Shown piece by piece: positions 4,085 through 49,512 of a stretch of 64,000 nucleotides of DNA. This DNA comes from Pelotomaculum sp. (GTDB lineage Bacteria > Bacillota > Desulfotomaculia > Desulfotomaculales > Pelotomaculaceae): positions 186,001-250,000 of the forward strand of contig JAHDOA010000018.1 of NCBI GenBank assembly GCA_018435055.1, given 5' to 3'. Each line of letters opens with the position of its first letter. Position 1 is the stretch's first letter. Under the pieces are notes generated by a model, which was given only the letters and a program-made list of their open reading frames with translations, was not told the origin of the DNA and ran no database searches. A program made the translations under genes and the position numbers.

Positions 4085-4262
4085 TCCGGCTGGAATCCAC
4101 AGGCAGGTTTCCTGGCTCCCGGTCATGTGCGGGACAAGCGCAGATCCATTTCACTGAAGAAAATGCAGCTTGTCACCTATGCGCCGGTTACAGTGGCGGG
4201 ACCGCTCAGGCTTTTACCTGATTCCCCTGCTGGCCAAACATTGCGGCACCTGCGGATACTGT
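4085..4262 (-). ncRNA. Cobalamin (adenosylcobalamin) riboswitch aptamer
   Basis: The minus-strand leader carries the B12-box signature: AAGCCTGAGCGGTCCCGCC followed by CACTGTAACCGG (about 4184-4213), and a 3' GAGCCAGGAAACCTGCCTG element (about 4099-4117). These are hallmarks of the cobalamin riboswitch class. The terminator at 4004-4036 and the cobU start follow, so high cobalamin should shut the operon off. Aptamer edges are approximate. Confidence 0.95.
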
Positions 4263-4270
4263 GTTTTAAT

Positions 4271-9107: not shown

Positions 9108-10646
9108 TTATTTGGCGTATTCTACAACTCTGGTCTCCCGGATAATAACCACCTTTATTTGACCGGGATAATCCAGTTCATTTTCAATTCTTTTGGCAAC
9201 CTCCCGCACCAGGCGTACAGCAGATAAATCGTCAATCTTGTCTGGTTTAACCATGATCCTTACTTCGCGACCCGCCTGAATTGCAAAAGATTTCTCTACA
9301 CCTTCGAATGAGTTGGCTATTTCCTCAAGTTTTGTTAACCGTTTAATGTATGATTCCAGAGTCTCCCTGCGTGCTCCCGGCCTTGCCGCAGATACTGCGT
9401 CGGCGGCCTGCACGAGAACAGCAATAATAGTCTTGGGCTCTTCATCCCCGTGGTGGGCGGCAATGGCATGAATAATTTCGTGTGATTCCCGGTATTTCCT
9501 GGCAAGATCAACACCAATAGCGACATGAGGACCTTCCACCTCATGATCGACAGATTTACCCAAATCATGTAGCAGGCCAGCTCTTTTGGCTACCTGAATG
9601 TCCACACCTAATTCCGCAGCCATTAGCCCGGAAAGGTGGGCAACTTCAATAGAATGTTTCAGGACGTTTTGCCCGTAGCTTGTACGAAATTTCAGCCGTC
9701 CAAGGAGGGTGACAATCTCGGGATGAAGTCCGTGCACGCCGGTCTCAAAGGAAGCCTGTTCACCAGCTTCACGGATCTGCGTATTTACATCCTTTTGCGC
9801 CTTCTCGACCATCTCTTCTATGCGGGCCGGGTGAATCCTGCCGTCAACGACCAACCTTTCCAGGGCAATCCTGGCCACTTCCCTGCGAATCGGATCAAAG
9901 CCGGATAAAATGACGGCTTCCGGGGTATCATCAATAATCAAATCTATACCAGTCAGCGTTTCAAAAGCCCTTATATTCCTGCCTTCACGGCCGATAATAC
10001 GGCCCTTCATTTCATCGCTTGGCAGCGGTATTACCGCTACGGTAGCTTCAGCCACATGATCGGCGGCACATCTTTGAATAGCCAGGGAAATTATATTGCG
10101 GGCGCGTTTTTCTCCCTCCTCCTTGGCTTTATTCTCAATATCTTTGATCATTATGGCTGCTTCATGTTGGATTTCCTTTTCAATATCTGCAAGCAGGATC
10201 TGCTTGGCATCTTCGGAAGTTAAACCGGATATTCGTTCCAACTCTACTAATTGCCGGTTATAGATGTCTGATAGCTTTGTCTTAACAGCTTCAATTTCCG
10301 AATCCTTTTTGTTTAGATCTTCTTCCTTTTTTTCAATAGAATCGACCTTGCGATCCAGGGTTTCTTCTTTTTGCACCAGGCGGCGCTCAAGCCTTTGCAA
10401 TTCTGACCTGCGCTCCCTGTGCTCCTTTTCCACCTCATTACGGAGTTTCAACACTTCTTCCTTGGCTTCGAGAAGAATCTCCCTTTTCTTAGCTTCCGCC
10501 CCTTTATTAGCCTCATCAATTATTTTTTTAGCTTCAGCCTCAGCAGAGATAATCTTTGCTTCCGCCAGGTATTTCCTGAGAAAATATCCTAAAACAAATG
10601 TAACCAGGGCGGAAATAATAATAATAACAACAGTATTAAAATCCAT
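9108..10646 (-). CDS. rny: Ribonuclease Y
   Basis: Membrane-anchored endoribonuclease that starts mRNA decay in many Firmicutes. Residues 4-23 form one transmembrane helix, about 25-190 a long charged coiled coil. The KH domain carries [12 protein letters not shown] at 215-226. The HD domain has [10 protein letters not shown] near 331 and LLHDLGK with the HD pair at 360-361. At 512 aa it is full length. The SD is AGGGAGGTGAG before ATG 10646. A strong terminator and a separate RNA unit lie just upstream (10691-10903). Confidence 0.97.
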
Positions 10647-10690
10647 ACAAACTCACCTCCCTTGCTAAATAAATATTTTAAACTTGAAAA

Positions 10691-10719
10691 ACAAAAAAAA
10701 CACCGAGTAAAACTCGGTA
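10691..10719 (-). terminator. Strong intrinsic terminator upstream of rny
   Basis: Minus-strand hairpin ACCGAG (10713-10718) TTTTA CTCGGT (10702-10707) is followed by eight T residues (plus-strand A run 10693-10700). It ends the transcript that starts at the promoter at 10910-10938. Confidence 0.85.
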
Positions 10720-10903
10720 GAAAATACAACGACACTACTTATATACTTGTCCAGTCCCAGGTAAGAAAAATAGCCCGCTAAAATGAGCGCAACTTAAAAG
10801 TTTGGCCAAAAACAACTGCCCAACTCCTACCTCCCGGCAATATTGGATTTTATCTATAATAAAACCCGTACAAAGTAGTATACAATTCTATTTTCTCCCA
10901 GCA
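10691..10903 (-). ncRNA. Candidate rod-shaped small RNA (6S-like) between recX and rny
   Basis: This is a self-contained unit of about 213 nt with its own sigma-A promoter and a strong terminator. It has no convincing gene. On the minus strand co-linear pairings make a rod: TATTTTCT region 10889-10896 with 10719-10726; AAGTAGT region 10873-10879 with 10734-10740; and CCTACCT region 10826-10832 with 10759-10765. A side hairpin (10845-10853 with 10859-10867, 9 bp including one G-U) sits in the upstream strand. Length, rod shape and an internal bulge resemble 6S RNA, but I cannot confirm the family. An alternative is an attenuated rny leader encoding a 26-codon peptide (TTG at 10815, stop 10735, SD AGGAG). 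Confidence 0.5.
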
Positions 10904-10909
10904 TTAATT

Positions 10910-10938
10910 ATTGTACAGGTTTTTTGTAATACTGTCAA
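10910..10938 (-). promoter_or_regulatory. Sigma-A promoter of the recX-rny small RNA
   Basis: Minus strand TTGACA (10933-10938), a 17-nt spacer, then TACAAT (10910-10915): a near-consensus promoter. The -35 lies inside a 10-bp hairpin (10927-10952) that overlaps the recX stop codon. The start would be about 10903. Confidence 0.8.
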
Positions 10939-10949
10939 GGCTGACAGTA

Positions 10950-11417
10950 TTATACCTCACTGCAGGCAAGAGCCTCTACTACATTTCTTATAACACTGTA
11001 AGAAAAACCCTTTCGCTTGAGATAGCCGGCCAGAATAGGATAAGAACAAGCTCCACCGCGCAGCGCTATCTTTTTTTGCGCTAGTTTCAAGGCGGCCTCG
11101 AATTCATCTGCGGCTCCTAATTCTGCCAGAAGTTCATTGATTATAGCAACATCGATACCTTTATTCAGCAATTCCTGCCGCAGTCCATAGCTGCCCTTTT
11201 TACCCGCCCTGACTGCAATCCAATAACGCGCAAAATTTTTGTCATCGATATAACCCAGCTGCATCAGGTATTTTATAACGGTATCGACAACTTCATTTGA
11301 ATAACCTTTGCGTGCAAGACACATCTTTAGTTCGGACTCTGACCGGGGACGATAATTCATAAGTTTATATGCGAATAACCTGGCTCGATCTATTTCACTG
11401 CTTATTTCACTGCTCAC
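10950..11417 (-). CDS. recX: Regulatory protein RecX
   Basis: Modulator that binds RecA filaments and limits or adjusts recombinase activity. The 155 aa contain three tandem helical repeats typical of RecX (RPRSESELKMCLARKGYSNE; LGYIDDKNFARYW; KGSYGLRQELLNKGI). Translation starts at GTG 11417, directly abutting the recA stop codon TAA, with the SD GAGGGGAAG inside recA, so the two are translationally coupled. Confidence 0.93.
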   Translation of the reverse strand: MSSEISSEIDRARLFAYKLMNYRPRSESELKMCLARKGYSNEVVDTVIKYLMQLGYIDDKNFARYWIAVRAGKKGSYGLRQELLNKGIDVAIINELLAELGAADEFEAALKLAQKKIALRGGACSYPILAGYLKRKGFSYSVIRNVVEALACSEV

Positions 11418-12481: not shown

Positions 12482-12493
12482 GAACAACAGTTC
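12482..12493 (-). promoter_or_regulatory. LexA/DinR (SOS) box of recA
   Basis: GAACAACAGTTC is a perfect GAAC-N4-GTTC core of the Gram-positive SOS operator, extended to CGAAC on the minus strand. It lies about 12 nt downstream of the -10 element, where LexA binding would block transcription start. Confidence 0.85.
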
Positions 12494-34327: not shown

Positions 34328-34347
34328 CAAACGTACTTTTGAAGAAG

Positions 34348-34437
34348 ACTGCACTCCCTACGCTGGCATTACCCAGATCAGGTTCATTGGGTCAGAACTG
34401 ACATTCTTTCTCAGCTGAATCACTTCAGCTCCCCATG
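34348..34437 (-). ncRNA. TPP riboswitch (THI element)
   Basis: The minus-strand leader contains the THI-box core: CTGAGA about 34410, GACCCAATGAACCTGATCTG (about 34374-34393), then GGGTAATGCCAGCGTAGGGA. This is the thiamine-pyrophosphate aptamer. With the downstream terminator it should switch off the thi operon when TPP is high. Confidence 0.96.
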
Positions 34438-34664
34438 CACTATTTTATTGTCAAACATTATTCTATTTTAAGATATCAAAAGATCCCTGGAAATGCAAGA
34501 GAAATATGGCTGATCCATAATAAAAGTCTCCATGTTGTTAAACTTTTGATCTATATTCACATCCTGAGCCACCTGAAAGGCGGCTTTCCTAAATACATGC
34601 AATTTTATGTCAATATTTATAAAACTGGTCAAAAGGAAAATGCGGAATCATAGGGAAGTATATC

Positions 34665-48954: not shown

Positions 48955-49512
48955 AAGACATTGTCCCCATGGCGCCTTATGCTGTGCGGCATTGGGCGTA
49001 CGGCGTGAAGGCTGTTACACCTGACAAAAGAGCTCTTGCCGCAGGGAGCGGGATGAGGCGTTGGTATCGGCCTTGAAAATAGTGAGAGAAAGGCTATTAT
49101 CATAACATGAAAGGTTCCCAAGTTCCGAATCGATGCCTGTGCCGCGTTCACGCCACCTCTATGCCGGCCACCAGCTGGTCAGTAAACAGGTTTCTTCCAG
49201 CCTCCTCCCGAGCAAGCCCCTCATCTCGGTTTTGATGACAACCTCGAGGTTTCGACACGTCTACAGTGGTTCAGGTTCATTCGTCTCCATGGCACTTACC
49301 TGACAGATTCTCATTCTGCCTTTTCCATAACGCTCACTACCATGGCTTTTGACCACAGCAGCTTATGGTGGTTTGAAGCCTCTACCTGTATAGCGGCTCC
49401 GAAGGATCTTCCTTCATCTTCGATCCAGCTTCCTTGGCACACAGGGGCCTCCCTCATCTTCTGTATAGCACCACACTTTCAGATTCTATTTAAAAGTGTG
49501 CTCGTGGCACAC
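48955..49512 (-). mobile_element. Probable group II intron remnant (5' part only)
   Basis: No gene is visible in this stretch of about 560 nt. On the minus strand the sequence begins GTGTGCCACGAGCAC at 49512, fitting the GUGYG group II intron 5' end. GACGTGTCGAAACC and GGTTGTCATCAAAACCGAG (about 49226-49264) and GAACTTGGGAACC (about 49115-49127) resemble domain I text of bacterial class B introns as I know it. There is no reverse transcriptase frame and no clear domain V, so it is a truncated fossil. The left end is uncertain. Confidence 0.55.

Follow-up and report, generated by a model that had tools for sequence, protein, structure and literature searches.

A conserved leader RNA upstream of rny in Pelotomaculum and related bacteria is predicted to attenuate transcription of the RNase Y gene

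Introduction

RNase Y is a main mRNA-degrading enzyme. In many Gram-positive bacteria it determines how long mRNAs last, which calls for tight control of its dosage. RNases involved in mRNA decay are known to autoregulate in the cases of Escherichia coli rne and Bacillus subtilis rny, and both systems act on the finished mRNA. In B. subtilis, RNase Y autoregulates partly via the rny 5′ UTR and cleaves its own mRNA in this 5′ UTR and in the early ORF, followed by RNase J1 (PMC10303841).

Here, we analyzed the region upstream of rny in a 64-kb stretch of Pelotomaculum sp. DNA, referred to as the window in its full length. The original prediction for this region favored a self-contained RNA resembling 6S RNA and named an attenuated rny leader with a short peptide frame as a competing reading. 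Based on sequence comparison, we conclude with a probability of roughly 0.7 that this region gives rise to the 5′ leader of rny mRNA, functioning as a transcription attenuator.

Results

The gene encoding RNase Y lies on the minus strand of the window (9108..10646) and its product matches the TIGR03319 RNase_Y equivalog model with 786.9 bits (cutoff 454). The upstream neighbor on the same strand is recX (10950..11417), which matches RecX models with scores below the curated cutoffs and is not part of the unit described here. Between the two genes, the near-consensus promoter that had been predicted is present at 10910..10938 (TTGACA at 10938-10933, TACAAT at 10915-10910, 17-nt spacer, 11 of 12 positions matching). 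It reads on the minus strand, which the original prediction had implied but left unstated, and drives the leader and, through it, rny. Since the window contains two promoters of this quality, compared to a mean of 1.1 in shuffled windows, the match alone is not beyond chance and it is conservation that carries the claim. The predicted leader RNA, counted from its start site through the T-tract, spans about 211 nt (10693..10903, minus strand) and gives a covariance-model match of 203.7 bits; both its 5′ and its 3′ end are predictions.

All parts of the previously proposed architecture, i.e., three co-linear helices and a side hairpin, are found in the minimum-energy fold of this RNA. The conserved 5′ element UGGGAGAAAAUAGAAUUG (10883..10900) comprises the 5′ tip and the 5′ strand of the closing helix P1a, whose 3′ strand GUUGUAUUUUCU (10720..10732) directly abuts the terminator stem with a gap of 0. 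Helix P1b continues the rod with its 5′ strand at 10873..10881 and, as supported by covariation, its 3′ strand at 10732..10740. The side hairpin P2 (GGGUUUUAUUAUAGAUAAAAUCC, 10845..10867), which is backed by fold and covariation, carries the loop motif AUAGAU, and the interior of the rod (10741..10844) is variable and poorly conserved in alignments. The terminator hairpin UACCGAGUUUUACUCGGUG (10701..10719) with its CCGAG/CUCGG stem is followed by a tract of eight T residues (10693..10700), so that the strong terminator expected in front of rny is indeed there. The ribosome-binding site AGGGAGG (10656..10662) follows 31 nt past the T-tract and the rny start lies 46 nt beyond the leader terminator. 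All these features are on the minus strand.

The leader folds with a minimum energy of -64.0 kcal/mol, compared to -46.7 +/- 4.1 kcal/mol for shuffled sequences (z = -4.2), and 0 of 200 shuffles reached an equally good value. An RNA from the plus strand was also considered and dismissed, its fold being unremarkable (z = -0.97). Among 48 aligned sequences, pairing is intact in 92% of cells and two-sided changes occur in 20 of 36 pairs versus 12 in shuffles. The covariation score of 0.218 compares with 0.122 after shuffling and 0.03-0.04 after sliding. Fitting the alignment to the model biases it toward the structure, but the signal is not recovered in the slide control. Covariation among relatives, on which the original prediction had staked its structure, is strong in the closing helix: P1b shows two-sided compensatory changes at all nine modelled pairs, and the side hairpin P2 shows such two-sided changes at seven of eight. 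Helix P1a is paired in 91% of cells of the 48 sequences, and its strands evolve differently. In 28 aligned sequences, the 5′ strand GGGAGAAAAUAGAAU is near-invariant whereas the partner strand drifts via wobble pairs and mismatches. The 5′ strand probably has another duty besides pairing, because it is conserved beyond what its pairing partner requires.

Conserved ends flank a middle of variable size, with total lengths from 163 to 412 nt among the loci of the class that were read first and as little as 98 nt in certain representatives of other classes (e.g., L112). In minimal members, only about 30 nt of the interior are left. The loop-like motif AUAGAU is kept in the side hairpin that follows the 5′ strand, even in very diverged leaders from other families (L109, L111, L117, L152, and L159).

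By DNA search, the leader was detected in 41 of 60 relatives; the 24 that belong to the same family all have it. Using a covariance model built from 28 sequences, we searched 113 genomes of the order and class and found the leader in 91 of them, nearly always as a single copy per genome; carriers include Pelotomaculum, Desulforamulus, Desulfoscipio, and Desulfocucumis. Inspection of 20 model-negative genomes revealed six assemblies with no usable rny. The other 14 contain rny, preceded by a diverged copy of the leader in 11 genomes (L147-L157), by the promoter and a different leader in two, and by neither in one. Outside the class, 11 of 12 model matches lie directly before rny. Scanning about 85,000 species genomes for the exact 5′ motif gave 23 matches, 21 of which adjoin rny and/or recA; the remaining two are in unrelated DNA with neither gene nearby. 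The exact motif was absent from the viral contigs searched. We found no convincing copy away from rny among the class genomes searched with the model, and the Pelotomaculum genome itself has one copy only. Two weak model matches (L120 and L123) that might have represented unlinked copies were rejected as terminator-like chance matches, and a search of the own genome with the pattern CCGAGTNNNNACTCGG was uninformative since the pattern had the wrong spacing. One metagenome-assembled genome titled Armatimonadetes (L145, JAIMBK010000047.1) contains recA, the leader, and rny with 79% identity to the window and is probably a mis-assigned genome.

The leader is located upstream of rny in every locus that was read, and recX is optional: the leader is retained at several loci where the adjacent recX is missing (L022, L028, L031, and others). 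At another locus (L030), CRISPR-like repeats (GTTTCAATCCACGCACTCCTGT...) lie upstream of the leader in the place expected for recA/recX. In the window, a LexA/DinR-like box (GAACAACAGTTC, 12482-12493) is found just downstream of a recA promoter that matches at 12 of 12 positions (12535-12506, minus strand). recA-recX is therefore probably under SOS control; rny is served by a separate promoter.

To survey the phylum, we used 87 genomes from a range of its families and genera. A promoter matching at least 10 of 12 positions is present upstream of rny in 86 of the 87, and 11/12 sites occurred in only 0-1 of 86 shuffled upstream regions. Three loci (L181, L182, and L189) keep the same promoter with a leader of 40-65 nt but have no terminator before rny, which identifies this promoter as the rny promoter. 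A terminator-like hairpin precedes the rny ribosome-binding site in 62 phylum genomes (18-28 in shuffles), and in 54 of these the hairpin has a ΔG of -9 or better (6-10 in shuffles). The same CCGAG/CUCGG stem is found before rny in 48 of the 86-87 genomes examined and in 0-1 after shuffling. Intrinsic terminator stems usually drift in sequence. Across families (L163-L252), this stem is almost frozen, even where only about 25 nt precede it and the T-tracts are weak. Such near-identity points to a further constraint or a binding partner, since the stem is more conserved than attenuation needs.

The arrangement leaves little room for an alternative start of rny transcription. The rny promoter lies upstream of a predicted intrinsic terminator that itself precedes the ribosome-binding site. 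In 88 loci, the gap between T-tract and ribosome-binding site has a median of 33 nt and a minimum of 3 nt (L075) and does not exceed 35 nt in 52 of them. Only three of the 88 loci have a promoter-like site with its -10 hexamer inside the gap, so that a second promoter between terminator and gene is rarely possible. Most gaps are too short for one. In most members, the sequences thus imply that polymerase has to pass the terminator, which is the only visible route to rny there.

None of the models in Rfam 15 matched the leader at the gathering score, whether the window copy or eight diverse relatives were queried, and none gave a credible match at permissive thresholds. Sub-threshold matches to roX2, anti-hemB, and pan were discarded as chance. 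Elsewhere in the window, on the minus strand, a cobalamin riboswitch (4085-4268), a TPP riboswitch (34337-34445), and a group II intron RNA (49298-49415) matched above the Rfam gathering score.

Discussion

If the leader is an attenuator, a strong near-consensus promoter would start every rny transcript and most transcripts would presumably end at the intrinsic terminator, leaving an RNA rod of about 210 nt that is closed by pairing between its two ends. Expression of rny would then come only from the fraction reading through. We infer that the 5′ tip GCUGGG, which continues from P1, may pair with the terminator 5′ arm CCGAGU during its synthesis, and that this pairing would compete with the terminator and set the level of read-through. 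For the nascent window RNA, before the 3′ arm of the terminator has been made, the predicted fold indeed puts the 5′ tip on the 5′ arm; in the full-length RNA, the two predicted states differ by 3.7 kcal/mol with the terminator favored. Of 48 sequences, 45-48 retain the pairs G8-C, G9-C, and U6-A/G, which show invariance instead of covariation. A shuffled tip of matched composition pairs equally well with the terminator arm in about 15% of cases. As evidence, the complementarity between tip and terminator is therefore only suggestive. Also suggestive is the replacement, seen in a few divergent genomes, of the mismatch where helix and terminator meet by C-G or U-G. The structural model is thus one in which the 5′ tip could be an antiterminator.

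Less certain is the nature of the signal, which may be RNase Y itself. Excess RNase Y would cut or open the A/U-rich 5′ strand, so that either the terminator is freed or the leader-bearing mRNA is exposed to a 5′ exonuclease, and the outcome would be a negative feedback like that of B. subtilis rny. We infer this control of the leader by analogy. As RNase Y is membrane-anchored according to a published report (PMC11313650), it may not act on nascent RNA. We hold only tentatively the broader proposal of a phylum-wide RNA family in which the 5′ end and the closing helix work against a sequence-conserved terminator, with RNase Y deciding on read-through by cutting or opening the helix.

The same anatomy would be expected if nothing were sensed and the leader with its terminator simply fixed a low RNase Y level or insulated rny from the probably SOS-regulated recA-recX transcript, a passive role for which the LexA-like box at the recA promoter and the several lineages devoid of a terminator could be cited. 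A plain insulator, however, is expected upstream and not downstream of the rny promoter, and fixed low expression needs neither a covarying closing helix nor a near-invariant 5′ element and a terminator sequence shared across the phylum, so that we regard a passive leader as rather improbable. Similar doubt applies to a dual role, in which the terminated leader would accumulate as a stable sRNA that also acts in trans, for example by binding RNase Y or by pairing via its 5′ element. A strong promoter, a closed rod, and a terminator would give an abundant, stable RNA, and the conservation of the 5′ strand beyond pairing needs as well as that of the terminator stem across the phylum would fit such a role; yet copies unlinked from rny were not found by the model in the class genomes, and the interior varies widely in length and sequence. 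The poor conservation of this interior, which is nearly absent in minimal members, is also unlike that of aptamers and speaks against a ligand-sensing riboswitch or a protein-binding leader that responds to a signal other than RNase Y. Such a leader would account for the conserved hairpin P2 with its recurring AUAGAU loop and for a conserved UGGACAA segment, with the terminator serving as expression platform, but the Rfam aptamers are unmatched and we judge it unlikely.

The 6S-like identity favored by the original prediction is not supported. A stand-alone RNA that binds RNA polymerase would agree with the size of about 200 nt, the rod shape with closed ends, and the promoter of its own. The search with the Rfam 6S model suggested at the time left RF00013 unmatched in the region at E-values up to 10, whereas the bona fide 6S RNA of this genome was detected with 95.3 bits on another contig (L001, G000:C17:22017-22197). 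Moreover, the RNA is inseparable from rny and thus not a free-standing gene, and it measures merely 98 nt at L112, all of which makes a 6S function very unlikely. The competing reading fared better in part: its rny leader stands, while its peptide falls. The window does contain a 26-codon frame LFLAKLLSCAHFSGLFFLPGTGQVYK with AGGAG upstream, through which leader-peptide attenuation could operate, but the frame is absent or broken in every one of the 13 relatives tested, five of them from the same genus. This non-conservation refutes the leader peptide, and we give attenuation by this route hardly any credence.

Should expression of rny require that polymerase pass the terminator in its leader, as the attenuator reading predicts, a transcriptional layer would be added to the autoregulation of RNases. 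With the leader conserved across much of the phylum, these bacteria seem to make RNase Y only past a built-in brake, and RNase Y homeostasis would become testable with a single reporter fusion. The leader would also add a new and clearly covarying family to Rfam. Neither Rfam 15 nor the open-access papers searched describe a conserved leader or attenuator of rny and, as far as checked, the proposed attenuating leader is novel both as a family of RNAs and for this gene.

Among the known systems, 6S RNA (RF00013) resembles the leader in size, rod shape, promoter, and terminator and differs in that its model does not match, that the leader is cis-linked to rny, and that the genome encodes a separate 6S RNA. 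The E. coli rne 5′ UTR, which serves RNase E autoregulation, is likewise a structured leader of a decay-initiating RNase; according to the B. subtilis study (PMC10303841), binding to a stem-loop speeds mRNA cleavage there rather than involving a terminator, and the enzyme is a different one. The B. subtilis rny 5′ UTR (160 nt) belongs to the same gene, is of comparable length, and limits RNase Y synthesis, but the accessible text mentions no intrinsic terminator or attenuation (PMC10303841), whereas the leader described here combines a conserved closing helix with a terminator before the ribosome-binding site. The analogy is one of purpose and not of proven mechanism, since the B. subtilis work describes mRNA decay and not attenuation. 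In its layout, the leader resembles attenuators and riboswitch platforms that use intrinsic terminators, with which it shares a promoter, a structured leader, a terminator, and possibly, if the prediction holds, a competing pairing to the terminator 5′ arm. Unlike in those systems, neither an aptamer nor a leader peptide was found, the competing strand would be the 5′ end of the transcript itself, and the sequence of the terminator stem is conserved phylum-wide.
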